Origin: Gammaproteobacteria bacterium
GTDB taxonomy: Bacteria; Pseudomonadota; Gammaproteobacteria; JAABTG01
Assembly (NCBI GenBank): GCA_034522055.1
Contig: JAXHLS010000002.1
Span: 3,429,549 to 3,493,548, forward strand
Length of the DNA: 64,000 bases
Direction of reading: 5' to 3'
Position 1 is the stretch's first letter, and every line of letters begins with the position of its first letter. The position numbers and the translations under genes are program-made. Under the pieces are notes generated by a model. It searched no databases and was not told the origin of the DNA. It saw only the letters and a program-made list of their open reading frames with translations. This document shows, piece by piece, positions 3,905-50,830 of the stretch.

Positions 3905-3924
3905 CCCGGCACCAGAATCGGACG

Positions 3925-27388: not shown

Positions 27389-28078
27389 ATGTGCACTCGC
27401 TACATCACGCCGGACCAGCGAGCGATAGAGGGCTACGTCTCTCACGTACCCCCTTGGTGGCAACAGGCCTACGACGTCCGAATCACCAGTCTGGTACCGG
27501 TGGTGCGGGCCGCTGCGGACGGTGAGCGGGCCCTGGAGCAGATGTACTGGACGCTCCTCCCCCCCAAGTCCGACAAGAAGGCCTGGCGCATGCCGACGTG
27601 GAACCTGAGGGGAGAGCGTCTCGAGGAGAGCCGGATGTACGCCTCACCCTTCAAATCGAGGCGCTGCCTGCTGCCGGCAGCCGGATTCTACGAGTGGCCT
27701 GAGGTCAACGGCGAGAAGCAACGTCACTGCATCAGGCCGGCGGACGGCAGCATGTTCCTCTTCGCTGGGCTCTGGAACTCCTGGTCGTCGAAGGACGGGA
27801 CTGATGAAGGGGCCACGGTGGGCATCGTCACGACGGAGGCCAACGACTTCATGAGGCCGTTCCACAACACAGGCAAGAACCCTTACCGCATGCCGGTCAT
27901 CCTCGACTTGAAGCTGGGGGACACCTGGATGTTTGGCGAGGTAGATGAGGCCCGTGAGCTCGTCAGGCCGTGCCCGAATGAGTGGCTGCAGGCCTACCCC
28001 GTCTCCCGTAACCTGGGCAACGTGCCAGCACAGATGGAACCAGTTGGAGAGGTGATTGGCCCGGGGAAGAGTTCCTAG
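27389..28078 (+). CDS. SRAP-family protein (YedK/HMCES-like), active-site variant
   Basis: 229 residues. The catalytic Cys2 is present (MCTRY), as are WNLRGERL and LLPAAGFYEWPE, with the conserved Glu near 108. SRAP proteins crosslink to abasic sites in single-stranded DNA and protect them during replication. The third catalytic position, normally His in HxRMPVIL, reads NPYRMPVIL here, so the His used in crosslink reversal seems replaced. SRAP genes are frequent passengers on phages and ICEs. The start ATG lies 10 bp after GGTAGGATC. Apart from the His the protein looks complete. Confidence 0.85.
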   Translation: MCTRYITPDQRAIEGYVSHVPPWWQQAYDVRITSLVPVVRAAADGERALEQMYWTLLPPKSDKKAWRMPTWNLRGERLEESRMYASPFKSRRCLLPAAGFYEWPEVNGEKQRHCIRPADGSMFLFAGLWNSWSSKDGTDEGATVGIVTTEANDFMRPFHNTGKNPYRMPVILDLKLGDTWMFGEVDEARELVRPCPNEWLQAYPVSRNLGNVPAQMEPVGEVIGPGKSS

Positions 28079-28241: not shown

Positions 28242-28268
28242 TAGGGCGCTAAGTTGAAGGAAGTAGAG

Positions 28269-28877
28269 GTGCAGGACGAAGTTATCCGACGCTGCCCTCA
28301 CTGCGGCAATACTGCCCCTCAGAGACTCGCGCTTGAGCACGAGTTCGAGAATCGAGAACTGTACGAAGAAGATGGCAGTCAGTCTGACTTCTCGCTATCG
28401 AGCCGTTACGAAGCCCGGATCTGTCGGACGTGCAACGAACTAGTCCTTTATCATGAAGACGACATATCCAGGCTTCACGTTGTCTATCCTGCTGGGCGCA
28501 CGCTCCATCGAGCTATTCCCGCTGAGATTCAGGGGTGTTACGAGGAGGCAGGACGAGTCCGCCGCGCATCTCCGTCGTCCTATGCAGTCCTGTTGAGGAG
28601 AGGCCTGGAGATGGTTTGTGACGACCGCGGGATAAAGCCTGGGACCCTACATGCTCGGTTGGTGGAACTGACGTCTCGCGGAGAACTACCGGCCGTGCTT
28701 TCCGACATGACCAATATCATCCGCGATCTGGGGAACGCCGGGGCTCACACTGCACGTCTGAAAGTCACGGTACCTATGACCTGGGCGATGGATGAGCTTT
28801 TTCGCGCGGTAGTTGAGTACGTTTACGTTGCACCTTACAGTGTAGAAGCAGTCAAAAAGTCTTTAGAACGTTATTAA
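28269..28877 (+). CDS. DUF4145-type protein with zinc-ribbon N-terminus
   Basis: 202 residues from the GTG at 28269, chosen for the AGGA 7 bases upstream; TTG at 28254 is also in frame. Two CxxC pairs (RRCPHCGNT and RICRTCNEL) frame an N-terminal zinc ribbon. The C-terminal half (YAVLLRRGLEMVCDDRGI, then IIRDLGNAGAH) is the DUF4145 signature. DUF4145 proteins often lie beside restriction-modification and toxin genes, but their activity is not established. The gene follows mini-ORF copy A by 27 bp. Confidence 0.7.
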   Translation: MQDEVIRRCPHCGNTAPQRLALEHEFENRELYEEDGSQSDFSLSSRYEARICRTCNELVLYHEDDISRLHVVYPAGRTLHRAIPAEIQGCYEEAGRVRRASPSSYAVLLRRGLEMVCDDRGIKPGTLHARLVELTSRGELPAVLSDMTNIIRDLGNAGAHTARLKVTVPMTWAMDELFRAVVEYVYVAPYSVEAVKKSLERY

Positions 28878-28999: not shown

Positions 29000-29554
29000 A
29001 TGCTTGTACACCGCTCTAAGGAAAAGCTCCGGAATGCCATCATCTACTTTGTCCAGAACACAAAGTACTGTGGCAAAACGAAGCTCTTCAAATTGCTCTA
29101 TTTTCTAGATTTCGAGCATTTCTCTCAAACCGGACGAAGTGTCACGGGACTAGAGTATTTCGCGTGGCCGAAAGGCCCCGTACCGGTGGAAATATTCGAC
29201 GAAGTCGAATCGCCTGGTCCGATACTTGAAGGCGTCGTCGAGGTTACGAAGAGGACCGCATATAATGGCAACGTCATTAACGATATCGCGCCCCTGCAAG
29301 GGTTCTCGGGCGAGCATTTCTCTAAAAGAGAGATGAAGCTGCTAGTTGGTCTTAGTAAGGAGTACGCTAATTCCTACGCGGACGATATGGTTGAGGCGAC
29401 CCATTTAGAAAACCTCCCGTGGCATCAAATCTACGAAGTCGAAGGTCAGAAACAGCACCTGATTCCTTATGAGCTTGCTCTAAAGAAATCCGAGTACGAC
29501 CAGGCGCTCAAGAACATCATCGACGATAAGGAGTTCAAGGAGAACTATAGTTGA
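29000..29554 (+). CDS. Panacea-domain (SocA-like) antitoxin
   Basis: 184 residues with the Panacea/DUF4065 features: KTKLFKLLYFLDFEHF near residue 28, TGLEYFAWPKGPVP near 50, and SYADDMVEATHLENLPW toward the end. This domain serves as a versatile antitoxin paired with many unrelated toxins. The stop codon overlaps the TTG start of the next gene, so the pair is translationally coupled in the antitoxin-toxin order. Expected role: binding and neutralising the downstream protein. The gene is AT-richer than the ICE backbone. Confidence 0.8.
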   Translation: MLVHRSKEKLRNAIIYFVQNTKYCGKTKLFKLLYFLDFEHFSQTGRSVTGLEYFAWPKGPVPVEIFDEVESPGPILEGVVEVTKRTAYNGNVINDIAPLQGFSGEHFSKREMKLLVGLSKEYANSYADDMVEATHLENLPWHQIYEVEGQKQHLIPYELALKKSEYDQALKNIIDDKEFKENYS

Positions 29555-31311: not shown

Positions 31312-32577
31312 ATGAAAGCCGATTCGGCCAAGGCCTCCGCGAGCCGCGGATTTTATTGGCCTATGGCTTTAACCAGAGCGAAGTACGCGGCGGTAGAGCT
31401 GTGCTGCGGCATGGGTGGGATTGGTATCGGACTCGCAGCGGCGAAATACAAGGTCGTGAAGGCGTACGACTCGTGGTCTGCCGCTACCGCGATCTACAAC
31501 CACAACGCTCCGGAACCGGTCGCGAGCGTATGCAACCTCGTAACCGAAGAAGGCCTGGCCACGGTCAGGCGCGACCGCCGCAAGCTCGGTGACGTCGACC
31601 TTCTTGCCGCTGGTCCTCCCTGCAAGGGGTTCAGCCAAATCCGCAACGGCCATCACGATCGGCCCAACCCCCACAACCGCGTGCTACTGGCGATGCCGCA
31701 GTACGTGGCGCTCTTTCGGCCCCGGCTCGTACTGATCGAGAATGTACCCGACTTGGCACGGCACGATGGTGGTGAAACGCTACGCCTCCTCCTCGAGAAC
31801 CTGGATCGCCCAGGTCCGCGGGGGCTCCGCTATCGGGTCGAGTACGGCGTCTACGATGCTGCTCTCTACGGAACACCTCAGGCCCGCCGGAGACTTCTGA
31901 TCCTCGCGGTGCGGCACGGATCCGGTGAAGAGCATCTACCGGATAACTCAGCCGATCTAACAGCGCTGTACGCAAGCCTGCGGCACGGTGGAGAGATTCC
32001 TGCGGAGCTTGAGAGCTATGCCGAATGCCTGGCGGACCCAGACGACCTTTCTATGACCTCCGGGCGCCAAGCGCTGTCCGATCTCCCGGTACTGGGGGCG
32101 GGCGAGCCAGAGTTAGTGCGCTCGTATGCGACCCCCCCCCGCAACGCATACCAGCGAGCGATGCGTGCCGGGTCGTCTGACCCTCTCACCAACACGCGCA
32201 CGCCCGCCGTTCGCAAGGAGACGATACAGCGCTTGAAGATGATCCCCCCGGGGGGCTGTGCTCGAGACATCCCGAGGCACAAGCTAAATGGCCTCTCTCG
32301 GCGGTATGATTCTGCCTATCGCCGCCTTCACCCTGACGCGCCGTCGACGGCGTTGTCGACCAAGTATGACTGCGTCTACCACTTCAGCGAACACCGTTCA
32401 CTCTCGGTCCGAGAGTATGCGCGGCTTCAAGGCATTCCCGACCGGATTTCATTTCCAGAAGAACTCGCCTGCCGCAGGTTCGCGTATGAGATGATCGGCA
32501 ACTCCGTTCCGCCCTTCCTCATACACGGCGTCCTAATGGAGATCGCCGAATCCACTCGGCGGAGGAAGGCAGGATGA
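31312..32577 (+). CDS. druM: DruM: DNA cytosine-5 methyltransferase of a Druantia type II system
   Basis: 421 residues from the ATG at 31312, preceded by AGGAAGGGGGT; in-frame upstream ATGs lack a ribosome site. C5-methyltransferase motifs occur in order: I (ELCCGMGGIGIGL, near 28), IV with the catalytic Cys (AAGPPCKGFSQ, near 100), VI (ENV, near 143), VIII (QARRRLL) and X (YEMIGNSVPP). It would methylate host DNA at a specific site so that the partner proteins spare it. It heads a five-gene operon in which every junction overlaps. The following helicase with fused DUF1998 and two unique proteins identifies the system as Druantia type II. Confidence 0.85.
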   Translation: MKADSAKASASRGFYWPMALTRAKYAAVELCCGMGGIGIGLAAAKYKVVKAYDSWSAATAIYNHNAPEPVASVCNLVTEEGLATVRRDRRKLGDVDLLAAGPPCKGFSQIRNGHHDRPNPHNRVLLAMPQYVALFRPRLVLIENVPDLARHDGGETLRLLLENLDRPGPRGLRYRVEYGVYDAALYGTPQARRRLLILAVRHGSGEEHLPDNSADLTALYASLRHGGEIPAELESYAECLADPDDLSMTSGRQALSDLPVLGAGEPELVRSYATPPRNAYQRAMRAGSSDPLTNTRTPAVRKETIQRLKMIPPGGCARDIPRHKLNGLSRRYDSAYRRLHPDAPSTALSTKYDCVYHFSEHRSLSVREYARLQGIPDRISFPEELACRRFAYEMIGNSVPPFLIHGVLMEIAESTRRRKAG

Positions 32578-33413
32578 GCCGCGGGTTCCGATTTTCTCCT
32601 GGTGGCCAGGCGACGCTGCTGTGGCTCGATGAGCTTCTGGAAGACGCCTACGGGGCCCCCGAAGCGCTGCTTGGAAATCACGCCGATCCACTCGACGAAG
32701 CGGTCTATATTATCCTCAGCTTCCAAACGGATCTGGCACGCTTTCAAGAGACGTGGCGGGAACTTCGCGCTGCGTTCCCGAGCTGGGAGAATGTGGAGCG
32801 CGCAAGCAGGGCTGATGTTGCCCGCGCCCTGCGGGCCGGTGGCCTCCACCAACAGAAAGCACGTACGATCAAAGCTCTGCTACAAGCAGTGCGGCACCAG
32901 TTTGGGGAGCTTTCGCTCACCCAGTTGGCCGGCATGAGCAATGAGAGCGCGGAACGCATTCTCACTCGGCTTACCGGTCTATCCTGGAAGGGGGCTCGCT
33001 GCGTCCTGATGTATAGCCTGGACCGCCCGGTGTTTCCCGTGGATGGGAACACCTTCAGAATCTTGCAGCGCGCTGGCGTCATCCCGCAGACTGCAGTCTA
33101 TCGACACAGGTCATTGCACGACAGGCTGCAGCACGCCGTCCCGGAAGGCCGCCGGAGGCCCTTCCACGTCAACCTGGTCGTCCACGGCCAGCGCTCGTGC
33201 CTCCCGATCGCTCCCCAGTGCGATAGTTGCCCTGCGGCGGCAGTCTGCAAGAAGCGCGGGGTACGCTCGGGAAGTCACGAGCAGACCGGTCTGCTGCGAG
33301 ATTGGGCCAATGGCGAGGAGGGGAAGCAGGAGCAGGTGCGAGCTGAGGTGACTGGACGGAATAGGTCCGAACCACCACGGTTCGAGGGCCAATACGCTGC
33401 TGCAATGGGGTGA
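32574..33413 (+). CDS. Endonuclease III-like [4Fe-4S] DNA glycosylase in the Druantia operon
   Basis: 279 residues; the start overlaps the methylase stop (ATGA). Helix-hairpin-helix/GPD features are intact: LTGLSWKGARCVL with the lyase Lys near 137, and PVDGNTFRIL with the catalytic Asp near 155. The iron-sulfur loop follows the exact C-x6-C-x2-C-x5-C pattern in residues ~208-225. Such enzymes excise damaged or mismatched bases. Next to a C5 methylase the obvious role is repair of T:G mismatches from deaminated 5-methylcytosine, as Vsr and Mig proteins do. The alternative is a direct nuclease role in defence. This gene is not part of the standard Druantia II set. The ~55-residue C-terminal tail is polar. 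Confidence 0.85.
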   Translation: MSRGFRFSPGGQATLLWLDELLEDAYGAPEALLGNHADPLDEAVYIILSFQTDLARFQETWRELRAAFPSWENVERASRADVARALRAGGLHQQKARTIKALLQAVRHQFGELSLTQLAGMSNESAERILTRLTGLSWKGARCVLMYSLDRPVFPVDGNTFRILQRAGVIPQTAVYRHRSLHDRLQHAVPEGRRRPFHVNLVVHGQRSCLPIAPQCDSCPAAAVCKKRGVRSGSHEQTGLLRDWANGEEGKQEQVRAEVTGRNRSEPPRFEGQYAAAMG

Positions 33414-36241
33414 AACGCATGCGGGATCTTCTGCGTGCGATCCTCTCCGTTCTTCGTGCGTTGTTGGATTCCAAGCGCGAGCGACCGCCGGAATCGGACC
33501 GAGGGGGAGAGCAACGAGATGCCGCTGGGGACGGTGGTGCCGATTCCTCCGCCAGCGGCGAGACGGGACCGAAGCAGAACACACCTTCAGAGCAGTCAAG
33601 CAACGACGAAGAAGCGGAGAAGGCGGAGGAATCCGGCGCCGATCAGAGCCACAAGGGCGCCCCTCTACTCCAGCAAGGCGAGGAAAGCGATGCGTCATCT
33701 CTCGATGCTGGTGAAGTTGGCCGGCAGGATGACACCGGTGCGGGATCCGATGCCCCGCAGCCTTCGGATGCAGAACAACCACTCGATGGCGCTCCCCGCG
33801 GCGACAAGACTGGCCGTGAAGGGATCCATGCAAATCCCCAAACAGGCTCTCGCGTCCTGGACCCAAGAGGCAACGGCGAGGAAACCTCTGAGCGCCAAGA
33901 GCATCCCCCTGAGTTGGTGCCTCAGGAGGATCCAACGGGAGCAGGGGGGAGGCCACAGGCTGCCGCAGTTTCCGGCAATTCTGAGGCCGAAGGCCATCCG
34001 CCCTCCGGCAAGGTGGCATCGACGGGCACGCAGAGATTTGCCGGCGGTGCAATCGAGACGCACGGAGAGAGCCAGAAGCCGCGGCCTCACACGGAGGAAC
34101 GGCTGAGCGCTGCGGGCAATGACGTGAGGCCGTGTCCAAGATGCGGCGTCACCTGCTTGTCTCACGAGGTCGAGGAGGTATTCGGTTACCGGACGATGAA
34201 GTGGACGGCCGCCGGAAGCGAGTCCGTGGCCGTTCACCGTCAGAGCTATTGCAGGGCGTGCCGTGCGGAGCACGCAGCTGAAATGCGGAACCGGAAGGAG
34301 CCAAGCGAAGGCCCTCAAGAATCGGATGCTTCATCGGCCGGCGCCGGTGCCGAGTTCGAGGACCTCGGCCCGAACAAAGAATCCGACTCCCATCTTCAGT
34401 CGCGAGATGGCGTCGCAAGTGAACGACAAAAGGAAGGACAGGCTGCGGATTTGAGCCGCTCTTCACCTGCCGTACCACATGGTGAGGCCGCTGGCCGAGT
34501 TGATGCGGGGCATCCGGGAGCTGCAGCTGCCCCAGACCTCGGCGACGGGACCGGTGCAGTGGGGCAGGAGGTGGGCGCGGACAGCGATGAATTTTCCCTC
34601 TCGCCCCGTGCCGCCCCCCCGGATTCCCCCGACCGGAGCGACCAAAAGGTTTCCGGAGCGCGGCAGGCTTCTAACAACGCTTCGAGCGAGAACCGACACG
34701 ATGGCGGCGAGACAGGAGAAACGGAGGAAGAATCTGCTGGTGCTGTGAACTTCGCAGGAGCCGGTGACGCCCAGGAGAGCTCTATGAGCGTAGGGGCACA
34801 TGAAGAGAACTCCCCGAGTGTGCCGCCCGTTCGCACCCCGGGTAGGCGGAAACGTTCCCCCCGGTACCGCGCGCCTGGAGGAGGACGGCCGCCCGCCCGG
34901 CCATCGCCTTTGCGCCGTTCGGAACCGAATGCCGGTCGAGACACTACGCTTCGGAGTCGTGCGGCCACGATCGAGGTACGCGTGCTTTTTCAACGCGGCG
35001 GATACTGCTCGGTGACCCTGCTTCCGAAGCGACCGCCTGACTTGCCTGAGGAGCTGCTCGTTGAAGGCGGCGCCGGGAATGTAGCGCTGCTCGCCCTTGA
35101 GGACGACTGGTATCAAGACATTGCCCTGGACAACCTCGGCGACGTTCTTCGCGAGGGCCTGGTGCTAGCGGATCCGGGCACCGCCCAGGAATGGGTGTTG
35201 TCAGGCCGTGAAATATTTGTCCTTGCCTCTGGCGCCACCCATCGAGGCTTCGTGTCGTGCGCTCGACTCGGGCTGGGGCGCGACCATGTCGTGCTCTGTG
35301 CTACGCGCCGATTGCCGGAGGTCGAGGAGGCATTACGCGAAGCAGGATGCGCCAGCTGGACACGACTCGCAGAAGACGATGGCGTGCCCAGAGGTTGGAC
35401 AGTAATTCGTGGCGTCGCCCCGGCCAAGGCTGTTTCACTACGGGGCGATGAGGACATCCTCAACATTTTGCGGCCGCTGCCAGATGTCGAGATCGCGCTC
35501 GAAGGCGGGATTCGTCTTGCATACAACTCGTGGTTGCACGGTTACCCGCCGTCGATCCGCGTCTACGGCGACCCCGAACATACGGAAGTAGTTTTGATCG
35601 ACGGCCAGGAAGCCGTCCGATCTGAGAACCAGGGCTATACCTCGGCCGGGTGGGCCAAGCTGGGCGAGCACCAGGTGTGGTGCAGCAACACATCAGCGTC
35701 GTACTCGATCGTTGCGAGCGACACCGACTGGAGGTTCTGGCCCGCCTATTCGTTCGCTCCTGGTGGCAATCCAGCGGGGGAGTTTTCGTTCTGCGGTCCG
35801 CTCGTGCGTCCTGTGAATCGCGCGAGGAATCCCGACAGCGAGGCGGGAGACGTCCAGCCAATTCAGGCTCCACCGAGCAATCCGGTTCTTATTGGAGCCA
35901 GACCTGGCGAGGTGTTCATCGCAGATCGTCGGCGCGATGTAAGAGGCGCTCGCTGCCTTTGTCTTCCGCCATTCGCCCCGGTCTGGGCGCTTCCGGCGCA
36001 ACCTCTCCATTGCGACAAGCAGGTCAGTCGGGTCCTCTTGATAGGGAACGCCACGGGCGTGCGGGAGCTAAGCGGACACCGCCGCAGCATGCGGCGAGGA
36101 GGCGACATCGAGCGCTGGTTCCGTCTGATCCTTGATGCAAGTAGGAAGGGGCTCGCGGTCCAGCCGCGGGACGCGAGCACGGATCAGCTTTGGCAGAGTT
36201 ACAAGACGGCTGCACGCAATCTCAGAAGGAGGTTGCGATGA
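33410..36241 (+). CDS. druF: DruF-like large protein with acidic low-complexity N-terminal half
   Basis: 943 residues; GTG at 33410 overlaps the previous stop, and ATG at 33419 is the other option. Residues ~25-480 are low-complexity, rich in Glu, Asp, Gly, Ser and Pro, and probably disordered. A zinc-finger-like island at ~240-290 interrupts it (PCPRCGVTC ... YCRACRAEH, two CxxC pairs). The C-terminal ~430 residues look globular (VRVLFQRGGYCSVTLLPKRP, LSGREIFVLASG). Its position between methylase and helicase genes, with DruG after it, supports DruF. I find no enzymatic motif. The disordered half is unusually long and may be a linker or interaction surface. Confidence 0.7.
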   Translation: MKRMRDLLRAILSVLRALLDSKRERPPESDRGGEQRDAAGDGGADSSASGETGPKQNTPSEQSSNDEEAEKAEESGADQSHKGAPLLQQGEESDASSLDAGEVGRQDDTGAGSDAPQPSDAEQPLDGAPRGDKTGREGIHANPQTGSRVLDPRGNGEETSERQEHPPELVPQEDPTGAGGRPQAAAVSGNSEAEGHPPSGKVASTGTQRFAGGAIETHGESQKPRPHTEERLSAAGNDVRPCPRCGVTCLSHEVEEVFGYRTMKWTAAGSESVAVHRQSYCRACRAEHAAEMRNRKEPSEGPQESDASSAGAGAEFEDLGPNKESDSHLQSRDGVASERQKEGQAADLSRSSPAVPHGEAAGRVDAGHPGAAAAPDLGDGTGAVGQEVGADSDEFSLSPRAAPPDSPDRSDQKVSGARQASNNASSENRHDGGETGETEEESAGAVNFAGAGDAQESSMSVGAHEENSPSVPPVRTPGRRKRSPRYRAPGGGRPPARPSPLRRSEPNAGRDTTLRSRAATIEVRVLFQRGGYCSVTLLPKRPPDLPEELLVEGGAGNVALLALEDDWYQDIALDNLGDVLREGLVLADPGTAQEWVLSGREIFVLASGATHRGFVSCARLGLGRDHVVLCATRRLPEVEEALREAGCASWTRLAEDDGVPRGWTVIRGVAPAKAVSLRGDEDILNILRPLPDVEIALEGGIRLAYNSWLHGYPPSIRVYGDPEHTEVVLIDGQEAVRSENQGYTSAGWAKLGEHQVWCSNTSASYSIVASDTDWRFWPAYSFAPGGNPAGEFSFCGPLVRPVNRARNPDSEAGDVQPIQAPPSNPVLIGARPGEVFIADRRRDVRGARCLCLPPFAPVWALPAQPLHCDKQVSRVLLIGNATGVRELSGHRRSMRRGGDIERWFRLILDASRKGLAVQPRDASTDQLWQSYKTAARNLRRRLR

Positions 36242-37182
36242 GCCTCAATCACCTCTTGCTCTGGCTTTCTGCGAAAGGAGAAGGCTCCTGGGCGCAGTTC
36301 CGGACTGCCGTCGAAGTCCTCCACGTGGATGCGGAGGACGGATCACAGGAGGACGACGACGAAGGCGAGCGCCAAGCGGTAGTGACTTCAGATCTGCCTG
36401 TCTACCAGCGCGCGCGCTTTGCTCTACAGCGTCTCGCTCACGTCGAGTTCTTCGCCAGCGAGGCAGATCAAGGCTGGCGAGTCGTACCGCCAGCGATTTC
36501 AGTGCGCCCGAGTTGCCACAGCGAAGGAGTCCTTTCTGGGGCCCGCACGCCAAAGCTCCTTCGGGCACTCGGAAGCACGCAGGGCATTGATGTGATCACT
36601 GAGACCGGGCCGGGCGTCCCGGATCGGATTCTTGTGCGCAGCGATTCCAGCCACGTGATGCTCTCGGCCGCCCGGCAACTCGGGCTCCTCGTCCAGCCAG
36701 ACGCACCGGCGGCCATACTTTCGGCGCTACCGACGGTTCAAGATCGAACGTCGTGGTTCCCAGCATCCATCCCCGAAACGCCGGGGTGGAGAGTGCACCG
36801 ATTCTCGCCCTCGAGCCTCGGCTGGAACGAGACGACCGGAACAGAAGCGATGGCGGCCAGCACCGGCTTGTTTCGGTTCGTGATGAAGCACCAGCGCTTC
36901 TACTACCTGCGCTGGAGAGGACGGACCTACAGCGTACCCGTCCAGGTGGGAAAGTACGCCGTCATGCGGCGCCGGCGCGGAGTCTTGGCCTATGACGGCG
37001 AGGTGCAGTGCGTCTCCATGCCAGCCGCCTGCAGGCCTCCCCTTCTTATCGAACGAGCCCTTGTGCTCTGCTCTGGTTTCCTGCCTCGTTTCGATCCATC
37101 GTCGGGGCGCCTTGTATACGCCGCCGTTCCTCCAGACATCGCGCGTCTCTCCGCGCAGCTACTCCACCAGGAGATGCGATGA
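36238..37182 (+). CDS. druG: DruG-like protein of the Druantia operon
   Basis: 314 residues from the ATG at 36238, which overlaps the druF stop (ATGA). The first part contains LNHLLLWLSAKGEGSWAQFR, then an acidic stretch, then a helix-turn-helix-like YQRARFALQRLAHVEFFA. The rest is mixed with conserved-looking HRFSPSSLGW and QRFYYLRWRGRTYSVP. No catalytic motif is visible. Winged-helix-like features and the fixed position before the helicase gene fit DruG, whose molecular function is not established. It ends in an overlap with the DruE start. Confidence 0.7.
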   Translation: MSLNHLLLWLSAKGEGSWAQFRTAVEVLHVDAEDGSQEDDDEGERQAVVTSDLPVYQRARFALQRLAHVEFFASEADQGWRVVPPAISVRPSCHSEGVLSGARTPKLLRALGSTQGIDVITETGPGVPDRILVRSDSSHVMLSAARQLGLLVQPDAPAAILSALPTVQDRTSWFPASIPETPGWRVHRFSPSSLGWNETTGTEAMAASTGLFRFVMKHQRFYYLRWRGRTYSVPVQVGKYAVMRRRRGVLAYDGEVQCVSMPAACRPPLLIERALVLCSGFLPRFDPSSGRLVYAAVPPDIARLSAQLLHQEMR

Positions 37183-40100
37183 GCAACCCAATCCGATTCT
37201 TTGAGAACCTGCGGGATATGTACCTGAGGTACCTCGATAGCCCCTTTGAGATCCGATACGGCGACCTGACGGCGGAGCGCAGTCAGCTCCTCGACCAGGA
37301 CGGCAGGATCTACCGCCACCCCTTGCTCGAGCCCGTGCCGGCCTACCGGTCGTCAAACCAGTCCTTCGGGCAAGCCGCGCAGTCCTTGCTTGGCGGGCGC
37401 TGGCAGGAGAACGAGGTCACCGGCGCGGCGGACTTCATCTCGCAGGGCCTTTTTTCGTCCAATCTCGCGCTGCACCAGCATCAGCGCGACGTTTTCGAAG
37501 AGGTCGTTGTCAACGGCAACGACACGGTCGTTACGACCGGGACGGGTTCCGGGAAGACCGAGTGCTTCTTGCTCCCTGTCGTCGCGTCAATCGTTCGCGA
37601 GTCTGCGTCCTGGACCGCTCCAGGCCAGCCACCGGCACAGTGGGATTGGTGGAACCACTTTACGATGCAAGGAACTCGGCGTCGCTGGGCGCCGCGCGTG
37701 TCACAGCGAGAGCACGAGACTCGGCCTGCCGCCATCCGCGCACTCATCCTGTATCCGCTAAACGCGCTGGTCGAGGATCAGCTCGCCCGGCTACGTGAAG
37801 CGCTCGACGGCACCGGAGCCCGAGCATGGCTGCAGGCGAACCGGGGCGGTAATCGACTCTACTTTGGCCGCTACACGGGCCGAACGCCAGTTTCGGGCGA
37901 GCGAACATCGTCCAATACCGGCCGCCTTCGTGACGAGCTTCGGAGCATCCACCAAGACGCCCAAGCTGTGGCGGGCAGTCCCGCCGAGCGCTTCTTCCAG
38001 AGCATGGACGGCGCGGAGATGTGGTCACGGTGGGACATGCAGGACAGTCCGCCCGATATCCTCATCACAAACTACTCGATGCTGAACATCATGCTCATGC
38101 GAGCGATCGAGTCGACGATCTTTGATCAGACGCGCGCGTGGCTCGAAGAATCGTCCGATCGCGTTTTCCACCTCGTTGTGGACGAGCTCCACACATACCG
38201 GGGAACGCCGGGGACTGAGGTTGCGTATCTTCTTCGCGCTCTACTCGATCGCTTGGGCCTCGCGCCAAACTCGGATCAACTCAGGATTATCTCGTCGAGC
38301 GCTTCTCTCGAGAGTGGAACAACTGGCCTGCAGTACTTGGAGCAGTTCTTCGGCCGCGACCGCAACCGATTCCGCGTCATCGGGGGCTCGTCTTACATCG
38401 TTCCACCCAATGCTGCGGCGCCAGAGAGCCTCTCGCTCCACGCTGCTGCTCTTGAAACCTTCGGGCAGGCGATTGCCGGATCCGGTTCTGGAGGACTACC
38501 GCAGGCTAGCACCGCTCTTCTGGGAGCCATTGGAGCATCCACTCCTCCACCTGGCGCATCCGTGGAAGAGAATCTCAATGCCGCGCTCGAGCACATTCAG
38601 GCTGCCGATGCTTTGCGCTTGGGCTCCACGATCAACCAACAGATCGTGCCCATGTCACCGCAGGATCTCGCCCCAGTTCTGTTTCCTGGCGCTCCACCGC
38701 AGCAGGCATTCAACGCTGTCGATGGCTTACTCACGGCTCTCTCCCACGCTAGAAACCCTTCAGGCCTTGCGCCTCTGCCCATGCGCGTCCACTTAATGCT
38801 CCGAAACCTGCAGGGGCTATGGGTATGTACTTCGCCGGCATGCAGTCAGGTGCCTGCTCGAGCAGCCCAATGTCCCACGGGATCGCTGCACTACGTGCCG
38901 ACGCTTACTTGCCAGTGCGGATCGCGCGTCCTGGAACTCCTGTACTGCGAACCTTGCGGGGAGGTCTACTTCGGGGGCTACCGGCGCGAGACCGATAATC
39001 CGAACGAATGGTACCTGAGCCCTGATCGGCCCAACCTTGAGGCCGCACCGGATCTGTCGTCGTTTGACCGTGACTACGAACAGTATGCCGTCTTCTGGCC
39101 TGCGGCTCCGGGGCAGACACCTTCATCCGCGCAGTGGACCCAAGATGGAATCGGCCGGCGCTGGCGCCAGGCAAGCTTTGATCCCGCAGATGGGCGGGTT
39201 GGCCTCGGGCTGCAGCCGGGCCAAGTGCATGGCTATCTGTACTTTGTGCCGTCGGTGCATGGAGCAAACCCACCGGACGCTCCTGCAGGTCGCGAGGCTT
39301 TCCCGTCGATTTGCCCGAGGTGTGACGCCGATTGGCGCCGCCGAGACGTCATCAAGTCGCCAATCCGAACACAGCGAACCGGTTTTCAGAAGATCGCGCA
39401 GGTTCTCTCTGACACCTTGCTTCGCGACCTCGCCGAACCTCCCTTGTCGAGCAATCGAAAGCTCGTGGTGTTCTCCGACAGCCGGCAGGATGCGGCGAAG
39501 CTGTCTGCGGGCATGCGCTTCTCCCACTACAGGGATGCGCTCCGCCAAGTCTTGGTTACCTCGCTCCGCCAACAGGGGACGGGGCCACAGGCATTCGCTT
39601 CGCAATGCCAGGGCCAGCAACTTTCTCCACAAGATCAGGCCGCGGCAGTGGCGTTCTCGAAAGCTCATTCTACGGATGCGACGACCCTCGCGATGGGGTT
39701 GAATCAGTACACTGCTTCTCTCCCGTGTGCTGCCTATCACGGAATGTCGAATCAGCAGGCAGCGCAGCAGATCATTCAGCGCGCGACCTCGGGCCCGTTT
39801 CGATTCACACAGGTCGCAACCGAGGTCGCAGAGTGCATGCTCGCCCAGGGCATGAACCCGGCCGGCTACACGCAAGAGGTACTGTGGACGAACCCGCAGG
39901 ATCGCGAGGGAAGCTGGCGAGATCTGCATGCATGGCCAAATGACGCTCGACCGTCAGCGAAGCCGCAAGGGCAGCTCACGCAACCCCAACAGGCGCACTT
40001 GCAGAGGCTCCAGGACCGCTCTCTCGTAGAGCTGATGGACATCGTCTTCGCGTCCGGGCGGCGCAGCCTAGAGTCGCTGCTGTTGGCCATTCCGACTGTC

Positions 40101-42752
40101 GATCGGCTCATGTTCCAAGCCCCGAGCACGCTCGTTCAGGAGGGCGCCGATGGGGCGATTTTCCTGTTCGGAACGAGGAAGCGCCTCTCCACCCATTCTT
40201 GCTCGTCGTTGAACACACCACCCGGCTACGTGTCAGCATACTTGGCTGCGATCGCCCAACAAGCTGGACTTAATCCGGACACGTACAGGAACGACGTTCT
40301 CGACTTCCTTGCGGCTGCTGGCGTCTTAAACACGGCCCACCACTACCTGAACGCAACAGCGCTATGCCTGGAGGGGCCATCTCAGACCTGCTTTGAGTGC
40401 ACGCAGTGCCGGCGCACCCACATGAACCCTTCGGGCGGCATCTGCTCGGATTGCTCCGCGCCGCTGGGGACGGGCCAACCTACGGCGACCGCTCAGCTAT
40501 CGCCGGACTACTACTCGTACCTCGCAACGCAAGCCGGAAGCATCTTTCGGCTCAACTGCGAGGAGCTTACCGGGCAAACGAACAAGTCGGATGCTCGAAA
40601 ACGGCAACGTCTGTTCCAAGACGTCTGTTTGCCAGCACCGCAAGAGAACCCGCTCGCCGATCCGGTCGATCTCTTGAGCGTGACCACCACAATGGAGGCC
40701 GGCGTCGACATCGGAACTCTTGTTGCGGTGATGATGGCCAACATGCCTCCGATGCGGTTCAACTACCAGCAGCGAGTTGGCCGGGCCGGCCGTCGCGGTT
40801 CGGGTATGTCGGTTGCCTTGACGCTGTGCCGCGGCAGAAGTCACGACGACTACTACTTCCAGCGGCCGCAACGAATCACGTCGGACGCACCGCCACAGCC
40901 GTACGTGGACATGCGGCGCGACAGCATCATCAAGCGCGTGCTGGCAAAAGAGCTCCTTCGCAAGGCATTTGCCGCGCTGAATCTCTTTACCGCTGGGGGA
41001 GGCGAGAGCGTCCACGGTGAATTTGGCCGCGCCGCAAATTGGAATCAACCCGCAACTCAGCCGCCCGCAGGAGCTCCCCCGAATATTACAACCGCCCAAC
41101 TGGTGGATGGCTGGCTGCAGCAGAATCCAACCGAGGTGGCCCGCGTCACCGATGTCTTGCTCTCGTACAGCGATCCCTCACTGCAGGCGAAGCGACAAGA
41201 TCTGATCAACTACTGCATCCAACAGATGGTTGCAGAAGTGACCGCCGCGTCTACCGACCCGAGGTATCCGCAGGACACCCTGAGTGAGCGTTTGGCGAAC
41301 GCCGGTATCCTGCCGATGTTCGGGTTTCCAACACGCACCCGATACCTCTTCCACGATAGGCCCACACGGGCTTATCCGTGGCCCCCCGACGACGTTGTTG
41401 ATCGCGAGCTTGATATCGCGATCAGTCAATTTGCCCCTGGGGCCGAGACGGTAAAGGACGGGCTTATTCACACGGCCGTAGGCGTCGTTGACTACCGCCC
41501 GCAGGGTAACAGCCCAGTGGAAGCTGCCGGCCCCCTCGGACCACCCATTGCGGTCGGCGTGTGCTCTGCCTGCCAGGCGGTGGACGGAAACCAACCACCA
41601 GCGCCGAGTTGCCCGGTGTGCGGTGCCACTGCCCAGCAAGAACCCGGCTATAGGATCACCAACATCTCCCAGCCCGCAGGATTTCGAACCTGGTACGGGC
41701 GCAGCCGTGATTTCGATGGAACATTCGAGTGGACGCCGCGCGCGTCGCGGCCAAAGATGGGCGCTTCTCTCCTCCATGGGACTCATCGAGCAAACTTTGA
41801 GGTCTGGGCAGACCGGGAGACCGTCTATGTCATCAACGACAACGATGGTTGTCTCTTTGACTTCGAGAAACTGGCGCAGGGAGAAACATGGGTTACCAGA
41901 GACTCGCTCGCCAACAACGGTGTGGACAACCCGCCAATTGATTCTGGGGCCGGTGCCGATTCACGTGCGTTGGGCTCGATCAAATCTACCGACGTGATGG
42001 TCCTAGGGATCGCTAACTGGCCTACCGGCATTCGTAAATCGCCCGCAGGTAACGAAGGGCTGGGGGTTCGGGCCGCGCTGTACTCATTTGGCTTTCTTGC
42101 TCGGCGCGCCGCTGCGGACCGCCTCGATGTACATGAGCAAGAGATCAAAGTCGGGCTCAGAGTCCTCCGAGACGCGGTTGGCGACATCATCGGGCAGATT
42201 TTTCTGTCAGACAGTTTGGAGAACGGAGCCGGGTACGCGTCGCTGCTGGGCGACCCGGCTGAGACAGAAGCACTCCTACAATACATCGTTGGTCAGTCCA
42301 GTCCGACGTTTTATCAGTTTCTGGTGGGATCGCAGCACGCAGGCACCGGACCGACGGGGTGTACTACATCGTGCCCGGATTGCCTTCGCGACTTCAGCAA
42401 TCTGCCCTATCACAGTATCCTCGACTGGCGGCTAGGTCTTGATCTCGCGCGGCTCGCACTTGATCCGGCGGCCCCAATCGACTTTTCGGTCGGCTACTGG
42501 CAGGGAGTCGATGTGGCCGCGGCCGGGCCGTACTTCGCCGCACTTCCTCCCGGATGGCAGCAGGTGACATTCGGTGGATTGCAGGCGGGCCGGCGGGGAA
42601 GCCAAGCCGAGATCATCACGCATCCTCTTTGGGACTGCGACCCGAATCGTTATGGGCCCAAGCTCGCCAACGCCTATGCGCAGGCGGGGGCAGCAGGATG
42701 CCAGCAGGTGAGCTTCAAGTCCGTCTTCGAAATACTGAGGCGGCCATTCTGA
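37179..42752 (+). CDS. druE: DruE: giant DEAD/DEAH-box helicase with C-terminal DUF1998
   Basis: 1857 residues from the ATG at 37179 (ATGA overlap with druG). SF2 helicase motifs: Walker A TGTGSGKTE near 120, Ia region YPLNALVEDQ, DELH box (LVVDELHTYRGT) near 334, and motif VI QQRVGRAGRRGSG near 1195. A cysteine-rich DUF1998 region (CTTSCPDCLRDF) lies near 1727, with further CxxC pairs near 590-610, 1130 and 1510. DruE is the one protein common to all Druantia types and is thought to unwind or translocate on invading DNA. Length and order are as expected. No frameshift is seen, so the system appears complete. Confidence 0.9.
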   Translation: MSNPIRFFENLRDMYLRYLDSPFEIRYGDLTAERSQLLDQDGRIYRHPLLEPVPAYRSSNQSFGQAAQSLLGGRWQENEVTGAADFISQGLFSSNLALHQHQRDVFEEVVVNGNDTVVTTGTGSGKTECFLLPVVASIVRESASWTAPGQPPAQWDWWNHFTMQGTRRRWAPRVSQREHETRPAAIRALILYPLNALVEDQLARLREALDGTGARAWLQANRGGNRLYFGRYTGRTPVSGERTSSNTGRLRDELRSIHQDAQAVAGSPAERFFQSMDGAEMWSRWDMQDSPPDILITNYSMLNIMLMRAIESTIFDQTRAWLEESSDRVFHLVVDELHTYRGTPGTEVAYLLRALLDRLGLAPNSDQLRIISSSASLESGTTGLQYLEQFFGRDRNRFRVIGGSSYIVPPNAAAPESLSLHAAALETFGQAIAGSGSGGLPQASTALLGAIGASTPPPGASVEENLNAALEHIQAADALRLGSTINQQIVPMSPQDLAPVLFPGAPPQQAFNAVDGLLTALSHARNPSGLAPLPMRVHLMLRNLQGLWVCTSPACSQVPARAAQCPTGSLHYVPTLTCQCGSRVLELLYCEPCGEVYFGGYRRETDNPNEWYLSPDRPNLEAAPDLSSFDRDYEQYAVFWPAAPGQTPSSAQWTQDGIGRRWRQASFDPADGRVGLGLQPGQVHGYLYFVPSVHGANPPDAPAGREAFPSICPRCDADWRRRDVIKSPIRTQRTGFQKIAQVLSDTLLRDLAEPPLSSNRKLVVFSDSRQDAAKLSAGMRFSHYRDALRQVLVTSLRQQGTGPQAFASQCQGQQLSPQDQAAAVAFSKAHSTDATTLAMGLNQYTASLPCAAYHGMSNQQAAQQIIQRATSGPFRFTQVATEVAECMLAQGMNPAGYTQEVLWTNPQDREGSWRDLHAWPNDARPSAKPQGQLTQPQQAHLQRLQDRSLVELMDIVFASGRRSLESLLLAIPTVDRLMFQAPSTLVQEGADGAIFLFGTRKRLSTHSCSSLNTPPGYVSAYLAAIAQQAGLNPDTYRNDVLDFLAAAGVLNTAHHYLNATALCLEGPSQTCFECTQCRRTHMNPSGGICSDCSAPLGTGQPTATAQLSPDYYSYLATQAGSIFRLNCEELTGQTNKSDARKRQRLFQDVCLPAPQENPLADPVDLLSVTTTMEAGVDIGTLVAVMMANMPPMRFNYQQRVGRAGRRGSGMSVALTLCRGRSHDDYYFQRPQRITSDAPPQPYVDMRRDSIIKRVLAKELLRKAFAALNLFTAGGGESVHGEFGRAANWNQPATQPPAGAPPNITTAQLVDGWLQQNPTEVARVTDVLLSYSDPSLQAKRQDLINYCIQQMVAEVTAASTDPRYPQDTLSERLANAGILPMFGFPTRTRYLFHDRPTRAYPWPPDDVVDRELDIAISQFAPGAETVKDGLIHTAVGVVDYRPQGNSPVEAAGPLGPPIAVGVCSACQAVDGNQPPAPSCPVCGATAQQEPGYRITNISQPAGFRTWYGRSRDFDGTFEWTPRASRPKMGASLLHGTHRANFEVWADRETVYVINDNDGCLFDFEKLAQGETWVTRDSLANNGVDNPPIDSGAGADSRALGSIKSTDVMVLGIANWPTGIRKSPAGNEGLGVRAALYSFGFLARRAAADRLDVHEQEIKVGLRVLRDAVGDIIGQIFLSDSLENGAGYASLLGDPAETEALLQYIVGQSSPTFYQFLVGSQHAGTGPTGCTTSCPDCLRDFSNLPYHSILDWRLGLDLARLALDPAAPIDFSVGYWQGVDVAAAGPYFAALPPGWQQVTFGGLQAGRRGSQAEIITHPLWDCDPNRYGPKLANAYAQAGAAGCQQVSFKSVFEILRRPF

Positions 42753-43383: not shown

Positions 43384-44263
43384 ATGCAGCCCGGCTTTTT
43401 CGATCTGGATAACCGTTATCAGGAACTGGAGAAACTCGGGGACCCATTGCCGACAATCGAGCGGGTAGTCGACTGGGAAAGTTTCCGCCCGATGCTGGAA
43501 AAGATTCACCAGAAGAAGCGCAAGAGCAATGCCGGGCGCAAGCCCTACGATGTCGTGCTGATGTTCAAGGTCCTGGTGCTGCAGCACCTGTACAACCTGG
43601 CCGACGAACAGACCGAATATCAGATCCGGGATCGCTATTCCTTCTGCCGGTTCCTCGGCCTGACGCCGGAAGGTCGGGTTCCGGATGCCCGCACCATCTG
43701 GCTGTTCCGGGAACGGCTCAAAGAGCTGGAACTGGTGGAAACGCTCTTCGCACAGCTGTCCAAGCAGATAGAGGGATCGGGATACATCGCGCGACGGGGC
43801 CAAATCGTGGACGCGAGCATGGTGGCGGCGCCGCGTCAGCGCAATCGCCGGGAAGAGAATGCCCTGGTCAAGGAAGGCAAGACGCCGGAAGCGTGGCAGG
43901 GCCAGCCCGCCAAGCTGCGGCAGAAGGTTGTCGAGGCCCGCTGGACGAAGAAGCACGGGAAGACCTACTACGGCTACAAGAACCACGTGGGCATCGACAA
44001 TATCAAGGCCAACCATTGGCGAGCCAAGGTTCGTGTACGGGTTGAGCATATCTTTGCTACCCAAACTGCGATGGGCGGGATGCTGGTACGCACTATTGGA
44101 TTGGCCCGAGCGGGTGAAGATTGGCATGATGAATATCGTCTATAACATTCGGCGACTGGCCTACCTGGAGACGCGGCGTGCATTGAGCAAGCCCATAGAG
44201 GACATCACAATCTCGGTTCGGCATGGCACGAACGGGAATATCCCGGTATTGCCCTTTCCGTAA
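43384..44263 (+). pseudogene. IS5-family transposase with internal deletion and frameshift
   Basis: The N-terminal ~210 residues are well preserved (NRYQELEKLGDPLPTIERVV, then SNAGRKPYDVVLMFKVLVLQ, then GQIVDASMVAAPRQRN with a catalytic Asp). After YGYKNHVGIDNIK the middle of the catalytic domain is missing. The reading resumes with VRVRVEHIFATQTAMGGM, then shifts frame near 44100 to finish as IGMMNIVYNIRRLAYLETR. The enzyme cannot be functional. It sits between the exported-protein gene and the restriction-enzyme remnant. Confidence 0.85.
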
Positions 44264-44348
44264 TCGCGACATGATATTCGTCCAAGGTGGCGAATGTCCG
44301 TCCTTTAGCCGCGAGATGCAAAAGTAGGGATTAATAGAGGTTCCCATC

Positions 44349-44666
44349 TGTGAAAAGGAGGATCGGATTGCGGCTTGGGCAAAGAACGATCACCTCGGGT
44401 TTCAGGTCCGATATCTCTACCGCGGTTCGTCACGTAACTTTGTCCCCGATTATTTGATCCGTCTCAACAACGGCAAGACTCTCGTGCTCGAGGTGAAGAG
44501 CCAGGACAGCGAGCAGAATCGTGCCAAGCGTGCAGCAATGGAAACCTGGGTGCAGGCGGTCAATGAGCAGGGTGGATTTGGACTGTGGTGTTTTGCCGTT
44601 GTGTTCGATCCGGCGAAGACGCGTGACACGATTGCGGCGCAGTGGGCAGCACTGATACACGAATGA
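44349..44666 (+). pseudogene. C-terminal remnant of a type III restriction endonuclease (Res)
   Basis: The open frame reads AWAKNDHLGFQVRYLYRG, then FVPDYLIRLNNGKTLVLEVK, then EQNRAKRAAMETWVQAVNEQ. The PDYLIRL...LVLEVKSQD part is the PD-(D/E)xK nuclease domain found at the C-terminus of type III Res subunits of the BPTD_3080 kind. The helicase part and any Mod gene are absent, so it is a leftover, probably cut by the adjacent IS5 element. Confidence 0.75.
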
Positions 44667-44733
44667 CGACGCATTGGCGGCTTCGTTTTTCGGACGTTTG
44701 ATGTCGCTGGCGCAAGTTTCCTTCGCACAGCTT

Positions 44734-45285
44734 TCATGAGGTGCCTAGGACATTTTCTCTGGCCCAAGACTGCCAATCAAATTCGTCGGATCCGACAAGT
44801 TCCAGTAAGGCGCGTCTTCCCGGTAGCAGCTGATTGTCGGTGAAGACGATTAGGTTCTCGCATGGCCATCGGGCCGAAGGCACAATTAGACCGTCGCATT
44901 CGAGAAAGGCGACCGCAGTACCGATGGCCTGGCAACGGCTGTAGTCCATCGAAGCGAAGTCCTCGATCGCGACACCCACTTCGGCGAGGTCTGTGCGCAT
45001 CAACCGTAAAGCGGCGTCTGTGCCTACCCGCAATTGATGAATTACGGCTGGTTTCGTGGGAGCAGGGGTCAGCAAACTCCAATGATGGACTAACTCGGCG
45101 ATGGCGCCATCGCGCTCAAGACTCGTGTAGAGAACCGGCGTTTCATCGCGAAACGCCCAGCGTCCGGCATTGCGTGACGGCGCGAGCGGGTCGTGGTTCA
45201 AGCGAGTGGCTCGGTAAGCCTCTCCTTCGAAGGTAATCTGTTCGAACTGACTCAGCTTATCCAGCAGTTTGTCGTCGTGAATCAC
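44734..45285 (-). CDS. RES-domain toxin (NAD-degrading type)
   Basis: 183 residues. RES-family features are in order: YRATRLNHDPLAPSRNAGRW with the conserved Arg, LYTSLERDGAIAELVHHW with conserved Tyr and Glu, and GTAVAFLECDGLIVPSARW near 125-143. RES toxins of type II systems deplete cellular NAD+ and stop growth until the antitoxin neutralises them. The gene lies 17 bp downstream of an Xre/MbcA-like antitoxin gene on the same strand, the usual order. No truncation is visible. Confidence 0.85.
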   Translation of the reverse strand: MIHDDKLLDKLSQFEQITFEGEAYRATRLNHDPLAPSRNAGRWAFRDETPVLYTSLERDGAIAELVHHWSLLTPAPTKPAVIHQLRVGTDAALRLMRTDLAEVGVAIEDFASMDYSRCQAIGTAVAFLECDGLIVPSARWPCENLIVFTDNQLLPGRRALLELVGSDEFDWQSWARENVLGTS

Positions 45286-45302
45286 GTCTCGACATGCCGT
45301 GG

Positions 45303-45647
45303 CTAGAGATACACGCCATCGCGCAGTTGGTCGATGGTCTCTATAACTTGCTGCGTATCACCCGCCTGGATGAGGTCAGCCGGCCGGGCGCCGCCGAGCA
45401 ACTTCTGCGGCGAATACAACCACAGTCGGGCATCCGCGGGTTCATAGAAATCTGAGAGTTCGTCGACGATGTACTCCAACTCCAATAAGGTCCGCTCCGC
45501 GCCCGGCCGGGGGAATGCCTTGCCTTGATTCCAGCGAGAAACCGTTTCGGGCCGCAGGCCCAGCAGATTGGCGACATCGACAGACTGCATCGCGCCTTTC
45601 GTCCTGATGGCGTCTAGTTTTCGTGAAATCGCATTGTTCGCGGTCAT
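45303..45647 (-). CDS. MbcA/ParS/Xre-type antitoxin of the RES toxin
   Basis: 114 residues. A helix-turn-helix (AMQSVDVANLLGLRPETVSR) occupies residues ~19-40, and the C-terminal part (DARLWLYSPQKLLGGARPAD) is the MbcA/ParS toxin-binding domain typical of partners of RES toxins. It should bind and block the toxin and repress its own promoter. It is the first gene of the two-gene operon and its upstream gap of about 30 bp separates it from the unknown 45679 gene, which runs the same way. Confidence 0.85.
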   Translation of the reverse strand: MTANNAISRKLDAIRTKGAMQSVDVANLLGLRPETVSRWNQGKAFPRPGAERTLLELEYIVDELSDFYEPADARLWLYSPQKLLGGARPADLIQAGDTQQVIETIDQLRDGVYL

Positions 45648-46959: not shown

Positions 46960-47139
46960 GATACGGCCTTTGAATTGACGCAGGAGTTGACATTAACATA
47001 GCGTTTTACATTGCGCAAGTAACGGACATTGAGCCGGATTTGGAAGACGCAGGGTGATCGAATGGTAGGTCGGGGGTCGGCGAAACGGGGTTAAGCCATT
47101 GAAAAAGCGTTTAAAAAGAGTTTTGATCGAAAAATGGCA

Positions 47140-47316
47140 TCAAGTTCGAATGAGTGCCGCGATCGCGACGTCCGCCTCGTCTTCCGGTGTGACATTCTTT
47201 TGGCCGAGCTTTCTCGGCTTGGGCAGTTTCCCGTCCCGGCGCAGGCGCCAGAGGGTCATACTGGAGCATCCGCCGAGTTTCTCGCGCAGCTGTCGGTCGG
47301 TGAGTAGTCGGTGCAT
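47140..47316 (-). CDS. AlpA-type helix-turn-helix regulator / excisionase
   Basis: 58 residues. It starts MHRLLTDRQLREKLGGCSSM and continues with TLWRLRRDGKLPKPRKLGQK, a classic AlpA/MerR-like winged-helix DNA-binding domain. A GGGAGA ribosome site sits 7 bases upstream. AlpA-like proteins regulate or assist excision of P4-type elements, and this one lies near the integrase genes. It is the kind of small gene that automatic calls often miss. Confidence 0.75.
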   Translation of the reverse strand: MHRLLTDRQLREKLGGCSSMTLWRLRRDGKLPKPRKLGQKNVTPEDEADVAIAALIRT

Positions 47317-47430
47317 GGTATGTCTCCCGTCAGAACTTGATATGGACGGGTACGATGCTAGGTCCGTGGCTGTAGGGTGTCGGCAGAAAACCCCGTCAAC
47401 CGGGTGCGCGGTTTTCCGCAGGGCGGGTAA

Positions 47431-47690: not shown

Positions 47691-47819
47691 CGACGAAGCA
47701 TCGACAGCATGGCCGACGGCAGCGGTAAGATGTGTGGCTGTTTGTTCTTCGTTCGGTTCCGCGAGAGTTCCCAGGTCCGGTGATCGAAATCGATCTCCGA
47801 TCACTGCATTCCGGCCACT

Positions 47820-49145
47820 TCATTGCACCACTGCCCGGTCAACATCAGGGTTCGGTTCACCCTGGCCCCGGTCTATTGCTTCTCGATCTTCATCGCCTGA
47901 AGTCCACTTCACCTCGGGCTCGGCCCGACCGGTAATCTTCTCAATGTGTACGCCCCATCGACGAAGGGCCTCGGTGCCCTCCGTCTGATAGGAATGGACA
48001 TTGTAGACGCGGGCAATGCCGCTCACGACGCCGCTGCGGTGGTTCAGCACAGCTTCGATTACGGCGGGTAGGACACCAAGTCGGGCCATGCCAGACGCCG
48101 CGGTCCTTCTTAAATCGTGATATCGCCATGGCGCGACGACGGGCCATCTGTCGGGGTCTTCCTGGTGGAGCCGCTCGATCTCGGCATCCAGGTGCCGCTT
48201 CGACTTCGAAAATCCTGAGACGGGCTTCTTCCCACCGGTCCCGCTGAACACGTATGGGTCGTCAAAGCGGGGTAGTCTCTTCAGGATCTCCCGCGCCGTC
48301 TTCGGGAGGGTCACGCGGTGGGGTGTGCCGCGCTTGGTGTCCGGGATGGTCCAGACGTCGCCTTCGATATCGTTCCATCGCATATGGGCCAACTCGGTCT
48401 CCCGCTGCGCCGTCAGTAGGAGGAGGCGCACGAACGGCCCAAAGGGATAACCTAGCGCTCCGGTAGCCTGCCAGAAAACCCGGAGCTCCTCGTTGGTCAG
48501 CACCCGGTCCCGCGGTTTCACCTTGGCGGGGATCTTGAGGCCGGCCAAGGGGGAAGTCGCAAGGATGCCCCGGGCGACGCACCAGTTGAACAGGGCGGCC
48601 AAGAGGCGGTGTGTCTGCACGGCCTGCGCGGGGTGTCCGTCTTTTAGGTAGCCCTCAGTGATGTCCAGGATGTTGCGGCGGGACACCTGGGTGATGGGCT
48701 TGTGCCCGATCTTCTTCTTCACCCGCTTCAGCTCACGCTCGTAGGCATCGGCTGTCTTCTGCTTCAGCTTCACCTTGGCGTGGAGTGCAACGTAATCGTC
48801 CGCGACGGCGTTGAAGCTCTCTCGGGCCGTGTCGGGTAGCACCTCGGTGGGCTGCTGCCGTGGGTCCTCGCCCCTGGTGGCAAGCTCGATGGCAGCTCGT
48901 GCGGCCTTCCGGGCTTCTGGTGCGGCGCTACCGGTGGCCGGGTCCGCCTTCGACGTGCGGGCCTTCCCGAGCTTCTGCCATACCGTCTTGCTGCCAAGAT
49001 CGTAGACGGCATACCACGTCTTGGTCCGGGTGCCCACTCGCAAGCAGAGGCCCGTTACCAAGTCGTCGAAGATGTCAACTTTGGGTTTGCCGGGGGGTGG
49101 CTTCGCGTTGGTGATCACCTGGTCGTTGATGCGCTTCCTGGACAT
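47820..49145 (-). CDS. int: P4-type tyrosine recombinase (ICE integrase)
   Basis: 441 residues. The N-terminal arm-binding DUF4102-like domain (ITNAKPPPGKPKVDIFDDLV) is followed by a SAM-like core domain (VADDYVALHAKVKLKQKTAD) and the catalytic domain. The active-site residues are present: Arg in LLLTAQRETELA, HDLRR (YHDLRRTAASGMARLG), His in VLNHRSG and Tyr in ARVYNVHSY. It should integrate and excise the element by site-specific recombination. The gene start faces the truncated TSUP gene, as expected for an integrase next to its attachment site. No tRNA gene is nearby. Confidence 0.9.
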   Translation of the reverse strand: MSRKRINDQVITNAKPPPGKPKVDIFDDLVTGLCLRVGTRTKTWYAVYDLGSKTVWQKLGKARTSKADPATGSAAPEARKAARAAIELATRGEDPRQQPTEVLPDTARESFNAVADDYVALHAKVKLKQKTADAYERELKRVKKKIGHKPITQVSRRNILDITEGYLKDGHPAQAVQTHRLLAALFNWCVARGILATSPLAGLKIPAKVKPRDRVLTNEELRVFWQATGALGYPFGPFVRLLLLTAQRETELAHMRWNDIEGDVWTIPDTKRGTPHRVTLPKTAREILKRLPRFDDPYVFSGTGGKKPVSGFSKSKRHLDAEIERLHQEDPDRWPVVAPWRYHDLRRTAASGMARLGVLPAVIEAVLNHRSGVVSGIARVYNVHSYQTEGTEALRRWGVHIEKITGRAEPEVKWTSGDEDREAIDRGQGEPNPDVDRAVVQ

Positions 49146-50784: not shown

Positions 50785-50830
50785 GGCGCCGGATAGCTCC
50801 TGAATCCAGGATCCGGCCGGCCGCTGCCCT

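Follow-up and report, generated by a model that had tools for sequence, protein, structure and literature searches.

A type IV-like Druantia operon carrying a C5 methylase and a candidate T:G repair glycosylase

Druantia type II was reportedly defined in 2018, by Doron and colleagues, as a system of DruM, DruF, DruG, and DruE. According to the accessible part of the PADLOC publication, type IV consists of DruE, DruF, and DruL, without DruM and DruG, both of which are required for type II, and DruK is not named there as a requirement of either type (PMC8565338). DISARM (DrmMII with DrmA/B) likewise combines a C5 methylase with a helicase of the YprA family.

C5 methylases are also found in company with repair enzymes, and the Mig.MthI glycosylase is encoded together with the C5 methylase M.MthTI. 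Mig.MthI is an HhH-GPD glycosylase, thought to repair the T:G mismatches that result from 5-methylcytosine deamination, and the residues of this type are A50, Y126, and L187 (PMC2714593). Deaminated 5-methylcytosine is thymine, and the resulting T:G mismatches are repaired by Vsr-like enzymes, whose genes can stabilize solitary C5 methylases (PMC12907096). In Dcm-Vsr very-short-patch repair, T:G is fixed at methylated sites, which is also the role proposed below for a glycosylase; Vsr itself, however, is an endonuclease of the PD-(D/E)XK fold. In the portion seen of a preprint on the YprA family, Vsr figures solely as a helicase-fused nuclease domain (PMC12458937), and no Druantia with a glycosylase or with very-short-patch repair was described in the literature searched, which took in few subscription papers.

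Operon organization and Druantia type

The window, that is, the whole stretch of 64,000 nucleotides of gammaproteobacterial DNA that was analyzed, contains five open frames on one strand between positions 31312 and 42752 (Table 1), with a four-base overlap at each junction (ATGA at 32574, GTGA at 33410, ATGA at 36238, and ATGA at 37179). The coordinates and junction letters agree with the five-gene layout of the original prediction, and its C5 methylase and Nth-like glycosylase, as well as its placement of the operon in Druantia, were borne out by the profile matches. The likely start of the fourth frame (ORF4) is the ATG at 36238, which is preceded by AGAAGGAGG.

Table 1. Positions of the operon genes and of neighboring features in the window.
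Feature	Position	Strand	Evidence
Shedu nuclease SduA	10629..11705	+	PADLOC 520 bits; Pfam SduA_C
SRAP (SOS-response-associated peptidase)	27389..28078	+	
DUF4145 protein	28254..28877	+	PD-T7-4 defense model 2.5e-12
SocA/Panacea antitoxin-like protein	29000..29554	+	
DruM, C5-cytosine DNA methyltransferase	31312..32577	+	421 aa from ATG; PF00145 9.4e-43
HhH-GPD/Nth-like DNA glycosylase	32574..33413	+	279 aa; PF00730 7.7e-10
DruF-like protein (ORF3)	33410..36241	+	943 aa; PADLOC DruF2/DruF4, best 3.8e-10
DruL-like protein (ORF4)	36238..37182	+	314 aa; PADLOC DruL4 2.7e-28
DruE, YprA-family helicase	37179..42752	+	1857 aa; PADLOC DruE4 1760 bits
DUF772/DDE transposase	43384..44145	+	
Apparent C-terminal fragment of a restriction-type protein	about 44340..44667	+	
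RES toxin and Xre/MbcA/ParS-type antitoxin pair	44734..45647	-	
Integrase	47820..49145	-	

The frame of DruM is open already from a TTG at 31207, and the signatures PCKGFS, ENV, and QARRR are intact. The protein is matched by the DruM model (191 bits), with a higher score for the generic PADLOC MTase_II model (211 bits); a genome profile search revealed it as the only PF00145 gene, and the only C5 methylase, of the window's genome. DruM-like methylases of about 700 aa, with an N-terminal extension of about 300 aa, were seen in four other loci (L002, L034, L039, and L047), and in two of them (L002 and L047) the extension weakly matches a DDE_5 endonuclease domain.

DruE carries the Pfam domains DEAD and Helicase_C, and its signatures GSGKT, DELH, QRVGRAGR, and CTTSCPDC are intact. 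The DUF1998 domain that had been ascribed to it was not recovered, since the Pfam model found no match at E<=0.1 and only a C-x3-C-x2-C signature is present. A DISARM assignment was rejected: the DrmA model scores about 30 bits at best on a helicase that scores 1760 with DruE4, and the DrmA/DrmB helicase pair of that system is lacking.

ORF3 is of low complexity from residue 1 to about 500 (hydrophobic fraction 0.08-0.22), a part that includes a CxxC...CxxC putative zinc motif from residue 242. Its PADLOC DruF matches are weak and restricted to residues 580-743, and it differs from PADLOC's DruF by this long low-complexity N-terminus, where the N-terminal region of PADLOC's DruF goes unmatched. 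The C-terminal region is conserved and was modeled with a pLDDT of 86; neither this model nor the AF2 model of ORF4 (pLDDT 92) found a PDB fold match at E<=0.001.

The third and fourth genes had been predicted to encode two large proteins, DruF- and DruG-like. The DruF assignment of ORF3 stands, if weakly, whereas ORF4 is not large and was rejected as DruG, its match being to DruL4. The DruG profile of PADLOC matched none of the five proteins, and the other scanned loci likewise lacked a DruG match, so that this search had no positive control. ORF4 also aligns to residues 752-1010 of DruF2 (6.6e-13), a model 1011 residues long. In four loci (L008, L055, L077, and L078), a single protein of 909-1013 aa stands in for DruF and DruL. 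The proteins of L008 and L077 were scanned, and both are matched at the C-terminus by the DruL model. Judged by the DruF2 alignment and the single-protein loci, DruL is the C-terminal portion of type II DruF, detached as a separate protein.

The operon resembles type II Druantia in having a C5 methylase ahead of DruF and a DruE helicase, but DruG is unmatched, DruF is split into DruF and DruL, and a glycosylase is added. It resembles type IV in the gene order DruF, DruL, DruE, all three of which were recognized, and in its best DruE model (DruE4, aligned over residues 2-1856, compared to 1609 bits for DruE2), but differs from it by DruM and the glycosylase ahead of the core. The canonical type II assignment originally made is thus not upheld; by its profile matches, the operon is a type IV-like core plus DruM, and falls cleanly into neither type. 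The PADLOC rule that type IV lacks DruM fails across the group, with a C5 methylase near 38 of 84 DruF/L/E loci.

The operon had also been called complete and working. The frames are indeed open, but DruK, a PD-(D/E)XK nuclease gene found directly after DruE in 21 of the 84 loci, is missing from the window, and completeness and a working state therefore do not follow from open frames alone and are unproven. The nuclease gene was considered as a new gene and rejected as such, as it matches the PADLOC DruK family (8.9e-26). It is also absent in the near relatives L011, L045, L062, and L012, and is broken in L010 and L015. The DNA right of the window's operon, where relatives have DruK, suggests decay. 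A transposase gene lies on this side and, behind it, the apparent fragment of a restriction-type protein (PDYLIRLNNGKTLVLEVKSQ).

The glycosylase and repair genes of related loci

The window glycosylase and DruM resemble the Mig.MthI/M.MthTI pair, in that an HhH-GPD glycosylase with an iron-sulfur cluster motif is found alongside a C5 methylase. The residues K139 and D157 and the C-X6-C-X2-C-X5-C iron-sulfur motif are intact. However, the nearest solved structures are those of D. radiodurans endonuclease III-1, and the Tyr126 and Asp 144 of Mig.MthI are represented by K139 and D157, with a lyase-type lysine at the catalytic position of Tyr126. The protein may be a bifunctional enzyme of the Nth type, and the lyase-type K139 and the endonuclease III-1 relationship make a T:G specificity unreadable from its sequence. 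A search of 399 genomes of the phylum, plasmids, and phages revealed no relative outside Druantia above about 36% identity. The window's genome also has an ordinary Nth-like gene and a MutY-like one, and a genome search found no Vsr gene in it.

Relatives of the operon were collected by scanning genomes with five aligned DruE proteins, which gave 80 loci, and more were added from plasmids and viral contigs; many of the loci lie on MAG contigs. Gene order was read with profiles made from the window's own proteins, and two loci (L092 and L093) were excluded from the counts. The DruE relatives are 58-76% identical and spread over several phyla. The extended layout, with the glycosylase between DruM and DruF, proved not to be peculiar to the window: the same order of five genes is present in L011 (Gemmatimonadota), L014 (Planctomycetia), L036 (Betaproteobacteria), L045 (Rhodothermales), and L083 (Deltaproteobacteria), with identities to the window of 61-68% for the methylase, 58-61% for the glycosylase, and 63-74% for DruE.

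In a Nitrospira locus (L028), methylase and glycosylase are fused in one protein of 552 aa (PF00145 at residues 8-326, PF00730 at 369-488). For the glycosylase half, the closest match is Mig.MthI (1KEA, 4.7e-37), an enzyme that acts on G:T mismatches, and the Mig-type A50, Y126, and L187 are retained in the 1KEA alignment. The DruE tree places this locus inside the clade bearing Nth-like glycosylases, and one repair enzyme has therefore replaced another. A glycosylase adjoins a C5 methylase on the opposite side of DruE in L066 and L076. Two loci in which no methylase was seen (L012 and L013) have a broken glycosylase, consisting of a 77-residue remnant and a 5′-truncated frame, and L010 has an intact glycosylase beside a broken N6 methylase, with a C5 methylase downstream of DruE.

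Vsr, an endonuclease where the window has a glycosylase, occurs in other methylase-bearing Druantia loci. A Vsr profile search found matches in 12 of 17 methylase-bearing genomes, several of them adjoining the Druantia operon, and the identity of the protein was confirmed with Pfam for L024 and L040. When repair genes were sought within 4 kb of each of the 84 loci, methylase and glycosylase were found together in 9, methylase and Vsr in 14 (with Vsr mostly downstream of DruE), methylase with both in 0, and methylase alone in 15. A linked repair enzyme is thus common but not obligatory, given these 15 loci. Loci lacking a methylase have no intact glycosylase except for the contig-cut L062, and the 2 that have Vsr are each cut by a contig end. 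The mutual exclusion of Vsr and glycosylase among the 38 methylase-bearing loci was significant by Fisher's test (p = 0.008; p = 0.037 for full flanks only), with related loci counted as independent. Among 51 full-flank loci, a repair gene accompanies 17 of 27 with a methylase, compared to 0 of 24 lacking one (Fisher p = 6e-7, uncorrected for kinship). Six gene-content labels change 17 times on the DruE tree, compared to 41 times when the labels are shuffled.

Proposed function and alternatives

The operon is probably a DruF-DruL-DruE core, borne on a conjugative element, together with DruM and a dedicated T:G repair glycosylase that substitutes for Vsr. The original prediction had assigned the glycosylase no role. 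DruM, whose family is evident from its profile match, would methylate host cytosines at a motif of its own. On the model of DISARM and of type II Druantia, DruE, with DruF and DruL, would act on unmethylated incoming DNA, and methylation would serve as the mark of self. Deamination of 5-methylcytosine at DruM sites would give rise to T:G mismatches, and hence to future C-to-T mutations; the glycosylase would excise the mispaired thymine, and base-excision repair would restore the cytosine, as Vsr would do elsewhere. This last step is newly inferred from gene swapping, fusion, and co-occurrence. A T:G repair role is suggested because the glycosylase tracks the methylase, has a Mig-like counterpart fused to it in L028, and is replaced by Vsr in other loci. 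A functional tie to DruM is indicated because the DruF-DruL-DruE core persists in many loci that have neither methylase nor repair gene. Methylation-based immunity costs mutations, and this operon appears to bring its own remedy, one of at least three found in the same role among related loci (an Nth-like glycosylase, a Mig-like glycosylase fused to the methylase, and Vsr). The cost of carrying DruM, and the possibility that repair genes let defense islands keep methylases, are directly testable.

One rather unlikely alternative is that the methylase and glycosylase form an independent, solitary methylase-repair cassette beside the Druantia core, outside the defense mechanism. The many DruF/L/E loci without a methylase would agree with such a cassette, as would the type IV clade, in which L076 is the only one of 27 rows to have one. 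Most methylases at other Druantia cores share no more than 23-31% identity with the window's DruM, some methylases being downstream or divergent, and the stabilization of solitary methylases by Vsr-like genes offers a parallel. Independence is nevertheless difficult to reconcile with the four-base overlaps that unite methylase, glycosylase, and DruF in one translational unit in the window, and with the frequent presence of a methylase beside the core in the window's DruE clade.

It seems improbable that the glycosylase is instead a defense effector, which excises bases from unmodified or hypermodified phage DNA, or produces abasic sites or nicks for DruE to load at. The GTGA overlap does couple its translation to that of DruF in the window, the lyase-type K139 suggests additional nicking at the abasic site, and base-excision restriction enzymes, such as R.PabI, exist (PMC10273834). 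However, the window glycosylase is of the HhH-GPD superfamily and not of the R.PabI family. It follows the methylase rather than the core, with no intact copy in methylase-lacking loci other than L062, and Vsr or a Mig-like glycosylase takes its place in other methylase-bearing loci. Participation of the glycosylase in immunity, through abasic sites or nicks made in phage DNA for DruE to load at, be it at DruM sites that lack methylation or at modified bases, with Vsr likewise co-opted as a nickase in sister loci, would constitute a base-excision form of Druantia, and is held to be quite doubtful. Canonical type II Druantia plus one additional gene present by chance, for which DruM, the DruF-like gene, and the DruE2 score could be cited, is very improbable in view of the DruL identity of the fourth gene, the preference of DruE for type IV, and the recurrence of the five-gene order in five other lineages.

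Surroundings of the operon

Genes for TraC, TraU, and TraG-N lie left of the operon, which is thus situated between F-type transfer genes and the integrase. This arrangement fits the operon being cargo of an integrated conjugative element, as originally proposed. The left end of the element was not found, and an att search comparing bases 1-30000 with 46900-54000 gave no 17-base direct repeat. Synteny with a genome of the same genus starts at 50331, at a sequence of about 85 bases (50331-50415). The counterpart of this sequence in the sister genome also matches G000 C2:312669-312753, adjoining the other half of the sister contig, and the chromosome therefore seems to be rearranged at this point.

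Shedu is a second defense system on the same element. The SRAP gene is located between the transfer genes and the defense cargo, the genes for the DUF4145 and SocA/Panacea-like proteins are upstream of the operon, and the RES toxin and its antitoxin are encoded downstream. At other Druantia loci, a protein of about 655 aa with helicase/ATPase motifs is encoded beside the core, either before DruF (L053, 6143-8116), where it is UvrD/Schlafen-like, or after DruE (L008, 14406-16373). On a viral contig (L093), a gene for an Eco47II-type restriction enzyme (3695-4513) overlaps that of a C5 methylase, ahead of a type I-like Druantia operon with DruD.
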